A stretch of DNA of 54,922 nucleotides, taken from the NCBI GenBank assembly GCA_945787635.1, contig CALZIK010000068.1, forward strand, positions 1-54,922, in the 5' to 3' direction. Source of the stretch: Thermoanaerobaculia bacterium (GTDB lineage Bacteria; Acidobacteriota; Thermoanaerobaculia; Multivoradales; JAHEKO01). The translations under genes and the position numbers were made by a program. Positions within the stretch are counted from its first letter, which is position 1, and every line of letters begins with the position of its first letter. Shown here piece after piece: positions 25,638 to 32,019 of the stretch. The notes under the pieces were generated by a model, which was given only the letters and a program-made list of their open reading frames with translations, had not been told where the DNA came from and ran no database searches.

Positions 25638-25780
25638 CGCAGAGACTCCGTTTCGCGAACGACAGAGTACCAAAGCGTCGGCCGCAATGAACCCGCGATA
25701 CGCACCCGACAGAAGATACGGTGCGGCATACTGCCGACCCAAGCAGTAGAGAGATTGCCACTCTTGTTGACTCTATCTCG

Positions 25781-25979
25781 CGGAGGGGACGGGATTCGAA
25801 CCCGCGAGAGACTTGCATCTCGCCGGTTTTCAAGACCGCACGGAAGGCAGATAGCGGCAGCCGGTAGCAGTCAGAAACAGGTATGGAACAGAAGCGTTCC
25901 GGGCCTTCCCACTGACTGCACGGCACTGCCCCCTTACCGCTGGTTTTCGAGAGCGGATGTGCCACCAGTGTGCCATAGG
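25781..25979. repeat. att-like module A: partial tRNA-Ser(UGA) 3' half plus direct repeats
   Basis: 25781-25838 repeats the 3' half of the intact tRNA-Ser(UGA) at 31930-32019, from acceptor through T arm, variable arm and anticodon stem-loop (CCGGTTTTCAAGACCG). The variable arm differs in sequence but still pairs (CGAGA/TCTCG). 118 bases on, 25957-25979 holds the paired repeat TGTGCCACCAGTGTGCCA, also present in modules B and C. The arrangement looks like an integrase core site plus arm-type sites. No tRNA 5' half is present. Confidence 0.75.
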
Positions 25980-26675: not shown

Positions 26676-26790
26676 TGGCGGAGGGGGCGGGATTTGAAAC
26701 AGCAACAACTAGCAGGCTTGCGAGCCACCCTGATTGACTGCCGTCTACTGGAGCTTTTCGTCGGCAAGTGTGCCACCAGCGTGCCATGGG
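26676..26790. repeat. att-like module B (internally deleted)
   Basis: 26676-26695 copies the tRNA-Ser acceptor and T-arm start (TGGCGGAGGGGGCGGGATT), but it then jumps straight to GAAACAGCAACAA, which in module C lies about 90 bases later. The downstream part matches module C (actgccg.ctactg..gctttt) and ends with the paired repeat GTGTGCCACCAGCGTGCCAT at 26768-26787. It is a deletion derivative of the same module. Confidence 0.7.
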
Positions 26791-27651: not shown

Positions 27652-28830
27652 TCACTGGCCGTCACGGACCGGCCAGACAAAACCAAGGACGTCCTTGTCG
27701 ATGCTGCCGATAGCGCCGCCGGCGAGGGACGAGGTCACCACGAAGTCGGAATCGATCCAGGTAGCCGACCACAAGAAAGGATACGGAGTCCCACCCGGAT
27801 TCACCCCGATGAACGCATCCCCCTCCGACCACGTCACGTCGCCTGGCGCGTTTACCACTGTCGGGGGACCTACCGAGCTATCGATCAGACTGTTCGAAGC
27901 CGCGGTGTCCGGACACGACACCAGGTCTGACCCCGACCACGCGCTGCACAGCTCCACGGCCGTCGGCTGCCGCCAGTCCCCCGGCGAAGATCCGTCGGTC
28001 AAGCCGCAGGTCCCGTCTGCCAGAGCAGCCGCGGCGGATTGCGCCGTTTCCCAGTTCGCCTGGCCGTTCGTGTTCGTGCCAGCCAGATCCCCACAGCTCG
28101 CGTCTTTCAACCAGAGTAAGTCCGTGTTGCAGTCCAACACGGTTCCGTCGCCCAGGTCCACATAGCGGTAGTCCACCGCTTCGCACAGTTGCAGCCCAAC
28201 GCCGATGCCGAGAGTCGCGGTCGTCACCACCGCCGCACCGTTGACCAGCAAGGCCGAATCGCCGGCCGCGCCCGACAGTGGCGCTGGACCGGCGATCGAT
28301 CCCCTGAAGGACGGGCTTACCGCCGAAGGCGAAGTCCCTACCGGCGACCCTGCGCTCGCCGCCGACCCGAGAGCCAGGTCCGAGCCCGCCTCTTCGAGGT
28401 ACTGCTGCACGACCGCCAGCGCCTCTTCGAACACCGTCGCGCTCGGCCCAGCCGCCACCTGGAACAAACTTGGCTGCGACCAATCCGAGGCCTCCTTCCG
28501 GCCCACAGCTCGTACACTCCAAGCGTATCGACCGCCGCGTTCCAGGCAGCTGTCGAGGCCAGGTGTCCAGCCATGTACCGAGCCGGGAAAGCTCTGCCGC
28601 AGGACGAGCTTCGTATCCTCGTTCGCCTTCTCCGCTTGATAGATCACCAGCTCGTAGCTCTCTGTGCGCTCGACGATCCCCCAGTTGAACGTAGGGCAGG
28701 GTTCCGAGACGGCGGTTCCCGTCGGGCTCCCCGGCGACACCGCCACCGGGCTCTCGTAGGCTCCTGCTGCCCGCGTCGAGAGCAGCAACAGGGTAGCTAA
28801 CAGGACTCCGTTCAGCATCGTCCGTCTCAT
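27652..28830 (-). CDS. Secreted DUF1566 (Lcl C-terminal domain) protein under riboswitch control
   Basis: 392 residues. A signal peptide (LNGVLLATLLLLSTRAAGAY) is followed by a fibronectin-III-like beta domain at about 30-125 (FNWGIVERTESYELVIYQ, GGRYAWSVRAVG), then a low-complexity Ala/Ser/Gly linker. The C-terminal DUF1566/Lcl domain begins at about residue 220 with RYVDLGDGTVLDCNTDLLWL and continues through ANWETAQSAAAAL and GDWRQPTAVEL to the terminal GFVWPVRDGQ. DUF1566 domains have a C-type-lectin-like fold and are used in surface adhesion. The start codon is 23 bases after a GEMM-I riboswitch, with a strong AAGGAAGGAG ribosome site between them. Likely a c-di-GMP-controlled surface or extracellular binding protein. 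Confidence 0.85.
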   Translation of the reverse strand: MRRTMLNGVLLATLLLLSTRAAGAYESPVAVSPGSPTGTAVSEPCPTFNWGIVERTESYELVIYQAEKANEDTKLVLRQSFPGSVHGWTPGLDSCLERGGRYAWSVRAVGRKEASDWSQPSLFQVAAGPSATVFEEALAVVQQYLEEAGSDLALGSAASAGSPVGTSPSAVSPSFRGSIAGPAPLSGAAGDSALLVNGAAVVTTATLGIGVGLQLCEAVDYRYVDLGDGTVLDCNTDLLWLKDASCGDLAGTNTNGQANWETAQSAAAALADGTCGLTDGSSPGDWRQPTAVELCSAWSGSDLVSCPDTAASNSLIDSSVGPPTVVNAPGDVTWSEGDAFIGVNPGGTPYPFLWSATWIDSDFVVTSSLAGGAIGSIDKDVLGFVWPVRDGQ

Positions 28831-28853
28831 GGCGTCACTCCTTCCTTGCCCTT

Positions 28854-28962
28854 CGGCAGCCCGGCGGTCTTGGGTCTTCGTGGCGGGGTGCTCGATGCTA
28901 GCCGTCGCGGAGAAGCGAGGAGCCGTGGCTTTGCGGCCCGGGTTTTCCCAGGTGTGCCTTTA
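28854..28962 (-). promoter_or_regulatory. GEMM-I riboswitch, c-di-GMP type (copy 1)
   Basis: On the minus strand this leader reads AAGGCACACC, the hairpin CCTGGGAAAACCCGGG, then CCGCAAAGCCACGG and, after a second arm, CGCCGGGCTGCCG. This is the conserved order of the GEMM-I aptamer. GGCA and TGCC close the P1 stem. The ligand-contact positions of the Vibrio Vc2 aptamer appear retained: G20 (last G before C in AAGGC), A47 (middle A of GCAAAGC) and C92 (first C of GCCG). A G at position 20 predicts c-di-GMP rather than cGAMP. Only 23 bases separate it from the DUF1566 start codon, leaving no room for a terminator, so control is probably at translation. Confidence 0.8.
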
Positions 28963-29032
28963 TCGAGGCCTGTCTTCAGATTACGCTTGAGGTGTCGATG
29001 AGAGCGCCACCCAAGGGGGTGGGAAGCGCGCC

Positions 29033-29124: not shown

Positions 29125-29354
29125 TCAAGTACTCAGAGGCGCCGCGATCAGATCGAGGTCTGTGACCAAGATGCTGTCGGCATCGAACAGTTGGGCCTTA
29201 AACGGCAGAGCTCGGTTGCCCCTGACTCTCACCGAGCTGCCGTTCATCGGGGGCTCGAAACCGCTGCACTGAATCTCAGGAATCAGCTCATACCCGAGGC
29301 CGATGAGCCCATTCTCATACTGCCGCAGAATCTCCTCGGGCGCCCGAGCCCTTG
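29125..29354 (-). pseudogene. Truncated PxKF-like domain fragment fused to riboswitch copy 2
   Basis: Reading leftward from riboswitch copy 2, one frame stays open for about 75 codons to a TGA at 29125-29127. It encodes PEEILRQYENGLIGLGYELI, then SGFEPPMNGSSVRVRGNRAL, then PFKAQLFDADSILVTDLDL. The GF..P(M)..rG...PfK.qLfDad sequence resembles the PxKF-type beta domain found at the C terminus of secreted proteins. There is no start codon or signal peptide; the frame runs straight into the aptamer's 3' end. I read it as the tail of a deleted secreted-protein gene that was once under riboswitch copy 2. Confidence 0.5.
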
Positions 29355-29468
29355 CGGCAACCCCGGTGGTCTTGGGTCCTCCGTGGCCGAGCGTTATGGC
29401 CTAAGCAGCGCGGAGAAAGCGAGGACCCGTGGCTTTGCGGCCCTGGGTTTTCCCAGGTGTGCCTTGAG
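29355..29468 (-). promoter_or_regulatory. GEMM-I riboswitch, c-di-GMP type (copy 2, orphan)
   Basis: The minus strand reads AAGGCACACC, hairpin CCTGGGAAAACCCAGG, GGCCGCAAAGCCACGG, a second arm closed by GGGTCCTC and GAGGACCC (perfect 8-bp pairing), and ACCGGGGTTGCCG. It aligns base for base with copy 1 over most of its length. Several differences restore pairing, for example in the second arm. G20, A47 and C92 equivalents are present. No intact gene follows; only the PxKF-like fragment does. Confidence 0.78.
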
Positions 29469-29530
29469 GCGTTATTCAGGTTACGGCTGAAGGCTCTGGC
29501 TGCGCGCCACCCAATAGCGCGGGACGGGCC

Positions 29531-29743
29531 GCAGTTCGGGGCCTCTCGCACCCGATCATCGGCAAGCTGCTCGGCCACACCCAGGCCGCGACCACTCAGC
29601 GCTACGCCCACTTGGCAGCCGATCCGGTGCGGCAGGCTGCTGACCGAATCTCGGGTGAGATCGCGGCGGCGATGAGCGGGAAGGCGAAAGAGGCAACGGC
29701 TCCACCCGAGCCCGGAAGCCGCAACGGAAATGACTCTGCATGA
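29531..29743 (+). pseudogene. C-terminal remnant of a tyrosine recombinase (integrase)
   Basis: From about 29540 the plus strand encodes GLSHPIIGKLLGHTQAATTQ followed by RYAHLAADPVRQAADRI. This is the C-terminal catalytic box of phage-type integrases, with the LGH histidine and the tyrosine nucleophile in RYAHL. The frame ends at TGA 29741-29743 after a variable tail. The N-terminal core-binding and Arg/HxxR parts are absent, and the upstream frame is closed within riboswitch-adjacent sequence. It ends 67 bp before att-like module C and points at it, as integrase genes do next to attachment sites. Non-functional as it stands. Confidence 0.8.
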
Positions 29744-29810: not shown

Positions 29811-30012
29811 TGGCGGAGGGGGCGGGATTCGAACCCGCGGTGACCGCAAAGCCACGCCGGTTTTCAAGACCGAGCGACGTGCAGCCAGCGACAGCAGCCA
29901 ACAGTCAGAAACAGCAACAATCACCAAGCTCTCAGACCTGCTCGGTTGATTGCTCGCTACTGCCGATTACTGCGGCTTTTTGTTGGCGAGTGTGCCACCA
30001 GTGTGCCATGGG
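29811..30012. repeat. att-like module C: partial tRNA-Ser(UGA) 3' half plus direct repeats
   Basis: 29811-29872 copies the 3' half of tRNA-Ser(UGA), beginning TGGCGGAGGGGGCGGGATTC and ending in the anticodon stem-loop GCCGGTTTTCAAGACCG, with a different variable arm. 29990-30012 holds GTGTGCCACCAGTGTGCCAT, two GTGTGCCA units 11 bases apart. Between them, CAGTCAGAAACAG is shared with module A and GAAACAGCAACAA with module B. An integrase remnant points at this module. Confidence 0.8.
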
Positions 30013-30092: not shown

Positions 30093-31142
30093 CTAGCGGC
30101 TCGACCGCACCTTTTTCAGCTCGTTTCGCAGCCTCTCGTTGTCTCTCTCCAGAGACTCCACGCGCAGAGCCAGCTGCTGGACCGCCGCGAGCGCTACGCC
30201 GGCGGAATCGGTGACCGAGATGTGCTTGTCGGTCTGGCCGAGACCGAAGGCGGCGTGGAAGTCCTCCGCCGTCGGCCCCATGTGCTCAATAGCTTCTGCG
30301 TCCTTCTTGTAGCTCCAGCGATAAATTGGCAGTCGGGCCAACCTGTCCAGCACCTTCCCTCCGTTTACGTCTTTCAAACCTTCCTTCGCGGTGCGGCTGG
30401 AGTTGACCTGTAGGTCACCGAAGAAGACCGTGTTGCCCGAACTGTCGATGTCCATCGTGGCCGGGGCCGTAGCAGAGAGTTCAATGATGTCCTGAGCGGA
30501 GGTTCCGCCGATACTGAACGTAGTTGAGTTCAGTTGGAAATCCACCAGCTCACCCGAAGAAGTGTTTTCCATCGCCCACCGAACGGCACCGCCGTTGATC
30601 AACCTAAATAGAGTCCGAAGGGCTCCATCGTCGTTTCGATCCTCAATGATGGCTTGGGCGTTAGGAAACGCTGGGACAGTTTGGAAAGGCCCGGGCGGCC
30701 CTCCTCCAACGACATGCAGCGGCGCCTGAGCATTAAGGGCGAAGTCGGCAGCGAATCCAGACAAGCCGATTCCGATGCCTTTCGGCCCTAACGACATTGA
30801 CCCGACAGGCGTACTTTTCTGGAGAAATAAGAAGGAGCTACCGACGGGCACGGAGGTAAACCCCAGACCGGTAGTACCATCTCCGTTTACGAAGGGAAAG
30901 AGAAGGTAGTCATCGGCAGTTGTCGCTGTGTTGTTGTCCAGCGTAATGCGACTAAAAAACCCTGGGCTCGCTGCTGCCTCGACGGCCTCGTCCTTCTCGT
31001 CATAGACGGCCTCGTTCTTCTCATAAGAGGTGGCCTGGGTTTCCCCTTGAGCCCAAAGGCCCGACGGCAGAAAAGCCTCAAATGCAACGGCGCAGACCGT
31101 CGCAGTCGACTTGACCAAGAAGAAGATTTGCTGCTTCGTCAT
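30093..31142 (-). CDS. Secreted protein with C-terminal peptidase S74 (intramolecular chaperone) domain
   Basis: 349 residues from ATG 31142, with a signal peptide (TATVCAVAFEAFLPSGLWAQ). A central beta-rich region (about 60-240) has LTLDNNT-like repeats and FRLINGGAVRWAMENTSSGE, resembling fibre shafts. The C-terminal 110 residues match the S74 endosialidase chaperone domain: NSSRTAKEGLKDVNGGKVLD (expected catalytic Ser/Lys region), LPIYRWSYKKDAEAIEHMGP, FHAAFGLG and a terminal coiled coil LALRVESLERDNERLRNELK. In phage tail spikes this domain trimerises the fibre and then cuts itself off; in bacteria it occurs on exported trimeric proteins. It follows a small secreted protein by 59 bp and may be co-transcribed. 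It lies between att-like module C and the intact tRNA. Confidence 0.8.
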   Translation of the reverse strand: MTKQQIFFLVKSTATVCAVAFEAFLPSGLWAQGETQATSYEKNEAVYDEKDEAVEAAASPGFFSRITLDNNTATTADDYLLFPFVNGDGTTGLGFTSVPVGSSFLFLQKSTPVGSMSLGPKGIGIGLSGFAADFALNAQAPLHVVGGGPPGPFQTVPAFPNAQAIIEDRNDDGALRTLFRLINGGAVRWAMENTSSGELVDFQLNSTTFSIGGTSAQDIIELSATAPATMDIDSSGNTVFFGDLQVNSSRTAKEGLKDVNGGKVLDRLARLPIYRWSYKKDAEAIEHMGPTAEDFHAAFGLGQTDKHISVTDSAGVALAAVQQLALRVESLERDNERLRNELKKVRSSR

Positions 31143-31201
31143 CCGATTTCCTCCAGTTCTCTGGGTGTAGCAGGCCGGCTTGCTTCTCTTTACGAGCCCA
31201 A

Positions 31202-31384
31202 TCATTGTCCGCCGCGAACCGGCCAAACGCAGAAGGCGCCGTTGCCACAATCGACGCAGATGTTCGACGAGTTGTTCCGACAAGAGCGTGCCGCCGTCTG
31301 GAGCGCAACTACGCCATCTCCGCACCATCCAGGTTTGGCCGCCATCACTATTCCCACCAGCACGAGAAACAACCGAAGCTGCAT
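31202..31384 (-). CDS. Small secreted Cys-rich protein ending in a DUF1566-like tail
   Basis: 60 residues. ATG 31384 is preceded by GGGAGG seven bases upstream. A signal peptide (LFLVLVGIVMAAKPGWCGDG) is followed by about 38 mature residues with five cysteines (including CVDCGNGAFC). The C terminus FCVWPVRGGQ is nearly identical to the last residues of the DUF1566 protein (GFVWPVRDGQ), and the DNA there is also similar. It could be a shrunken DUF1566 derivative or an independent small secreted peptide. It sits directly upstream of the S74 gene on the same strand. It is likely expressed given its ribosome site; its function is unknown. Confidence 0.55.
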   Translation of the reverse strand: MQLRLFLVLVGIVMAAKPGWCGDGVVALQTAARSCRNNSSNICVDCGNGAFCVWPVRGGQ

Positions 31385-31437
31385 CTGCCACCTCCCGTGA
31401 TCGACAAGCAGACGAACTCTAGGGGATTTCTCGGCAA

Positions 31438-31929: not shown

Positions 31930-32019
31930 TGGCGGAGGGGGCGGGATTCGAACCCGCGGTCCCCGTGAAGGGACGCCGGTTTTCAAGACCGGTGCATTCG
32001 ACCACTCTGCCACCCCTCC
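31930..32019 (-). tRNA. tRNA-Ser(UGA)
   Basis: The minus strand reads GGAGGGGTGGCAGAGTGGTC at the 5' end, with anticodon stem CCGGT/ACCGG around loop CTTGAAA (anticodon TGA), a long variable arm GTCCC...GGGAC, a T arm with GGTTCGAATCC, and CCCCTCCG plus encoded CCA at 31930-31932. Complete and foldable. Its 3' end faces left, toward the three partial copies of its own 3' half, so it is the attachment locus of the mobile-element array. Confidence 0.96.

Follow-up and report, generated by a model that had tools for sequence, protein, structure and literature searches.

The leader immediately ahead of a gene for a secreted DUF1566-type protein in a Thermoanaerobaculia bacterium (Acidobacteriota) raises the question of whether the gene is under c-di-GMP riboswitch control, how such control would be exerted, and on what kind of DNA the pair is carried. 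The best-studied c-di-GMP riboswitches are those of Vibrio, Clostridioides, Bacillus and Geobacter. The window analysed here is the stretch of 54,922 nt spanning positions 1 to 54,922 of contig CALZIK010000068.1; its relevant features are compiled in Table 1.

Table 1. Features located in the 54,922-nt window, with position, strand and the evidence for each.
Feature	Position	Strand	Evidence
tRNA-Ser gene, intact, end of array	31933..32019	-	RF00005, 63.5 bits
Copy of tRNA-Ser 3' part (att-like)	29811..29872	+	90% identical to the tRNA gene over 62 nt
Tyrosine integrase C-terminal tail, adjoining aptamer 2, divergent	29528..29743	+	87% identical to residues 340-394 of an intact 402-aa integrase
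Promoter of aptamer 2: decayed palindrome (about 29507-29523), -10 TAACCT (29478-29483)	29478..29523	-	Comparison with family leaders
c-di-GMP-I riboswitch aptamer 2, upstream copy, without intact gene	29353..29473	-	RF01051, 41.3 bits
Open frame of 77 codons after aptamer 2, without clear start	29128..29358	-	Translation and tblastn
Promoter of aptamer 1: palindrome CACCC-N4-GGGTG (29008-29021), -10 TAATCT (28978-28983)	28978..29021	-	Pattern match; position conserved in the family
c-di-GMP-I riboswitch aptamer 1	28852..28968	-	RF01051, 43.3 bits (gathering cut-off 35)
Candidate anti-SD stretch CUCGCUUCUCC in the P2 loop of aptamer 1	28909..28919	-	Pairs with the SD in the free fold; not specific (swapped-leader control)
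Shine-Dalgarno (SD) GGAAGGAG, 7 nt before the ATG	28838..28845	-	Sequence
Secreted protein, 392 aa: signal-peptide-like start, Ig-like part, Lcl_C (DUF1566)	27652..28830	-	Pfam, family search
Shorter copy of tRNA-Ser 3' end (att-like)	26676..26698	+	96% over 23 nt
Further copy of tRNA-Ser 3' part (att-like)	25780..25838	+	84% over 59 nt

The first-pass annotation had read the leader as a GEMM-I aptamer with its contact positions retained, and had named a scan with the RF01051 covariance model as the check. The scan (Rfam 15 cmscan, whole window) matched the full model, positions 1-87, above the gathering cut-off with E = 3.2e-5, and E = 6.0e-7 was obtained when RF01051 alone was run against the organism's own genome. 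In the alignment, model position 11 is G (Vc2 G20) and the A after GC (A47) is kept. The conserved 3' CC, which should include C92, is retained as well. The proposed location of the element held, while its end was shifted: the annotation had placed it at 28854, 23 bases before the start codon, and the Rfam match runs to 28852, leaving a gap of 21 nt to the ATG. Across the family, the core helices covary, with 9 pairs changed on both sides; none of 500 shuffles scored as high, and the slid controls were also exceeded. Aptamer 1 has two small defects absent from the first-pass annotation, a P1b hairpin one base short compared with its relatives and a C.C mismatch in P2 (GGCUC, against GGGUC in relatives), and its score is low within its family. 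Judged from its sequence, aptamer 1 is a genuine c-di-GMP-I riboswitch, ordinary in kind, and a further example of an already known riboswitch class. It shares the aptamer core, the contact bases and the 5' leader position with the Vc2 and Cd1 riboswitches, and this lineage differs from them in a long P2 insert, an expected transcript start almost at the aptamer and a common palindromic promoter.

The claim that the downstream product is secreted and carries a DUF1566 domain was borne out by a signal-peptide-like N-terminus and by a match to Lcl_C (PF07603, the former DUF1566) at residues 229-389, which passed narrowly with 35.5 bits against a cut-off of 34.9. The Ig-like N-terminal part stayed below its Pfam cut-off. 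No relevant solved structure was matched by the sequence of the protein, no match was obtained in the named genomes searched, and an AlphaFold model from the single sequence had a mean pLDDT of 37.6, too low to use. In the Legionella collagen-like protein Lcl, the C-terminal Lcl_C domain is C-type-lectin-like (PMC11162425); the 392-aa protein shares this C-terminal domain, and unlike Lcl it has no collagen repeats and bears the Ig-like part at its N-terminus instead. An attachment role may be suggested for it. Second-messenger control of surface or adhesion proteins by c-di-GMP riboswitches is known from Clostridioides difficile (CD630_27970, CD630_28310) and from cbpA of Bacillus thuringiensis (PMC6200980, PMC7423583). 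Those systems belong to Firmicutes, whereas the present one concerns an acidobacterium, an Lcl_C gene and tRNA-linked DNA.

The organism's genome (G000) contains 11 RF01051 matches, 10 of them over the cut-off, and matches were found in 29 of 59 genomes (own included), the highest number, 18, occurring in a genome from the same genus. The leaders of relatives mostly precede genes for exported proteins, and a hydrophobic N-terminus was seen in the product of 50 of the 61 leaders with a good gene call. Four genes after GEMM-I leaders, in three genomes, encode an Lcl_C-like domain, and in each the gap measures 21-24 nt, the median for the leaders being 52. The same riboswitch-gene pairing, again with a 21-nt gap, is present in a same-genus relative (G001:C364), whose protein is 50% identical to the 392-aa protein over residues 1-205; the link between riboswitch and gene is thus conserved.

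In most leaders of the family, CACCC-N4-GGGTG precedes the aptamer by about 50 nt and a -10 of the form GTANNNT by about 15 nt. The looser pattern CYC-N4-GGGT was found between -65 and -40 in at least 34 of 65 leaders, that of aptamer 1 included, nearly all at -51 to -47, against a chance expectation of 0.007 per site. Relative to the expected start of transcription, the palindrome is centred about 43 nt upstream, beside a poor -35; class II activators bind close to this distance. In several family leaders TTGAC takes the place of the palindrome. The aptamer at L039:6730-6840 of the own genome (G000:C152:6730) has a TTGACA -35 in that place, and the gene after it encodes the same Ig-like N-terminal domain as the 392-aa protein. 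The strict palindrome pattern occurs at six places in the own genome, two of them riboswitch leaders, compared with none for the reversed control. The remaining sites include ones before a YbaK-like gene, which is also hit in G001 and G011, and before a CBS-domain gene; in relatives the pattern was matched ahead of cytochrome c and OsmC-like genes (all names by inspection). At three loci (L202, L205 and L211) the palindromic promoter is followed by a degenerate GEMM-like leader below the Rfam cut-off, so that the regulon is probably larger than Rfam indicates. The fixed promoter position of the palindrome suggests a putative activator, whose regulon would extend beyond the riboswitch leaders. 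This promoter motif of riboswitch leaders is previously undescribed.

A second class I aptamer, like the palindromic promoter and the integrase tail absent from the first-pass annotation, lies on the same strand, 385 nt upstream of aptamer 1, and its 3' P2 strand has one extra base. The 77-codon frame that follows it had no homologue among the loci compared by tblastn and is probably the end of a lost gene. Doublets of class I aptamers on one strand are known, with 347 described (PMC9481103), and a single tandem switch was considered for this pair. It was rejected because the two aptamers have separate -10 elements and stand 385 nt apart with a gene remnant between them, which points to two units rather than a classical tandem switch.

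The suggestion that the leader is carried on integrated DNA was supported by the copies of the tRNA-Ser 3' part starting at 25780, 26676 and 29811, together with the integrase tail. These direct repeats of the tRNA 3' end flank the element, as expected of tRNA-integrated DNA, and GTGTGCCACCAG-like repeats stand beside two of them. An intact integrase was not found in the window, where only the C-terminal tail is present. The arrangement resembles tRNA-targeted genomic islands, with tRNA 3' copies as att-like sites and a tyrosine integrase, and the riboswitch-Lcl_C unit looks like part of a group of short and decayed elements at a single tRNA-Ser. The next tRNA-Ser-bounded segment is filled by a Peptidase_S74 (endosialidase chaperone) gene, 30093-31391 on the minus strand. 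Adjacent to the island, a molybdopterin oxidoreductase shares 83% identity with that of a Thermoanaerobaculia bacterium, which places the host most likely in this class.

In order to evaluate the expression platform, the accessibility of the SD was predicted by folding. In the free fold of the aptamer 1 leader the SD is mostly paired with the P2 loop, and its openness rose from 0.18 to 0.58 when the aptamer was forced; swapped leaders gained alike. Over 48 leaders with the aptamer forced, openness increased in 20 and decreased in 6, with a mean gain of 0.094 compared with 0.049-0.098 in swapped leaders. Since the swapped leaders nearly match this gain, the opening effect is generic, and a general ON switch by SD accessibility was rejected. 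Pairing of the P2 loop with the SD as a general switch was rejected too, the leaders' own pairs being no better than permuted ones (p = 0.16-0.19); both larger permutation tests include one empty loop, and a further test is the cleaner one. The P2 loop matches the SD over 8-9 bases in two leaders, G000:C13:4277 and G001:C364. From the fold predictions, an ON direction would be weakly favoured.

Concerning the ligand, G20 was present in 45 of 50 aligned family cores and in aptamers 1 and 2, and A47 in all aligned cores. In Cd1 the equivalent base is G11, which has a role in selectivity (PMC9262584). The own genome encodes 17 GGDEF domains, so c-di-GMP is likely made in the host. Aptamer 1 is expected to bind it. 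That aptamer 1 chiefly senses 3',3'-cGAMP rather than c-di-GMP gains some plausibility from A20, the cGAMP-type base, which occurs in 4 of the 50 family aptamers; one of these four is the own-genome aptamer G000:C152:6730, whose downstream gene shares its N-terminal domain with the Lcl_C protein. Both aptamers of the window, however, have the c-di-GMP-type G20 (PMC9262584, PMC9481103) and not the A at position 20 that marks GEMM-Ib, which makes a cGAMP switch highly improbable here.

Translational control had been deduced from the short gap before the gene. The gap alone is a weak argument; the conclusion itself is plausible from the leader sequences, in that TTTT between aptamer and start is limited to 4 of the 61 family leaders. 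For class I switches, action on transcription is known from C. difficile and from pilM in Geobacter metallireducens (PMC6200980, PMC9262584), and control by termination or mRNA decay could be envisaged on this model, but the 21 nt before the ATG hold no T-run and such runs are as rare in the family as stated, so that it is distinctly unlikely. A different objection is that aptamer 1 might be a decaying island copy, partially folded and poor in binding or regulation. The P1b deletion and the P2 mismatch fit this idea, as do the element remnants all around and the state of aptamer 2 nearby, which lacks an intact gene and whose promoter arm is decayed. Against it, the contact bases, palindrome, -10, SD and 392-aa frame of the aptamer 1 unit are intact and the same pairing is kept by a relative; decay to that extent is regarded as rather unlikely. 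In the preferred reading, aptamer 1 would form the extreme 5' end of the mRNA for the secreted Lcl_C protein. An activator at the palindrome, beside the poor -35, would start transcription; translation would then be set by c-di-GMP binding to the leader, via access to the SD beyond the aptamer. The Lcl_C gene is most likely under these two inputs, the activator for transcription and c-di-GMP for translation. Taken as a whole, a real c-di-GMP-I switch with two-input control of a secreted Lcl_C gene in a decayed tRNA-Ser array is considered a likely account of the locus.

The integrase tail next to aptamer 2 was followed into other genomes. The intact 402-aa integrase of G002, which carries PF00589, was used as query against four genomes. 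About 20 close fragments were recovered as C-terminal pieces, and no close N-terminal fragments were found in these four genomes. Among the tails, the best-preserved begin at residues 337-342 and the rest further on, apart from two longer ones that begin at 264 and 272; the tail boundary corresponds to the codons written GTCGGCGCCGGCGC in intact integrase genes. The tails share one strand and follow each other at intervals of about 0.8-1.3 kb, each interval holding about one gene. Four to five tails are arrayed on G000:C152, and further arrays were found on G000:C79, G001:C50, G002:C135 and G009:C206. Within the C152 array, a tRNA-Arg-like 3' fragment was recognised by eye (L039:6427-6500). 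Such a tail lies about 50-110 nt from seven of the aptamers, and in every case the two are divergent; the seven come from three genomes (G000 C68 and C152; G001 C117, C50 with two, and C550; G009 C206). Fewer than 0.02 such neighbours would be expected by chance in G000 and G001 together, as estimated from the number of tails, 300 nt per tail and genome size; the seven leaders share descent and are therefore not independent. The tails differ from each other by pS of about 0.5 and pN of about 0.1, showing that they diverged under coding constraint. The spread of one old truncated integrase copy was rejected, because most of the divergence took place under this constraint.

A literature search found no description of integrase-tail arrays, and they are a novel lead beside an otherwise ordinary riboswitch and gene. 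One tentative explanation, unlikely as it still appears, is that one-gene secreted-protein cassettes array by site-specific recombination inside the 3' end of the tyrosine integrase gene. Junctions would fall at the GGCGCCGGCGC site of that gene, each insertion would swap the C-terminal coding tail of the integrase, and some cassettes would bring their own palindromic promoter and c-di-GMP riboswitch. Tail swapping would account for the common start codon of the best-preserved tails, the constraint at the protein level and the absent N-terminal fragments. The arrays might also have arisen by repeated accretion with a favoured breakpoint. With integron cassette arrays they may be compared by arrangement alone, as tandem units of about one gene; in the present arrays, unlike in integrons, it is the 3' end of an integrase gene that recurs between the genes.

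These results indicate that an Acidobacteriota lineage known from metagenomes appears to route a large part of a set of exported proteins through c-di-GMP riboswitches, with a common promoter motif over the exported-protein riboswitch units and some of these units loaded onto tRNA-linked islands. Of these findings, the promoter motif and the tail-linked arrays deserve further study. If the palindrome binds one activator, its regulon can be tested at once. If the integrase-tail arrays are mobile, they would represent a new route to gene-cassette arrays, and the spread of ready-made second-messenger control together with cargo genes would thereby be explained.
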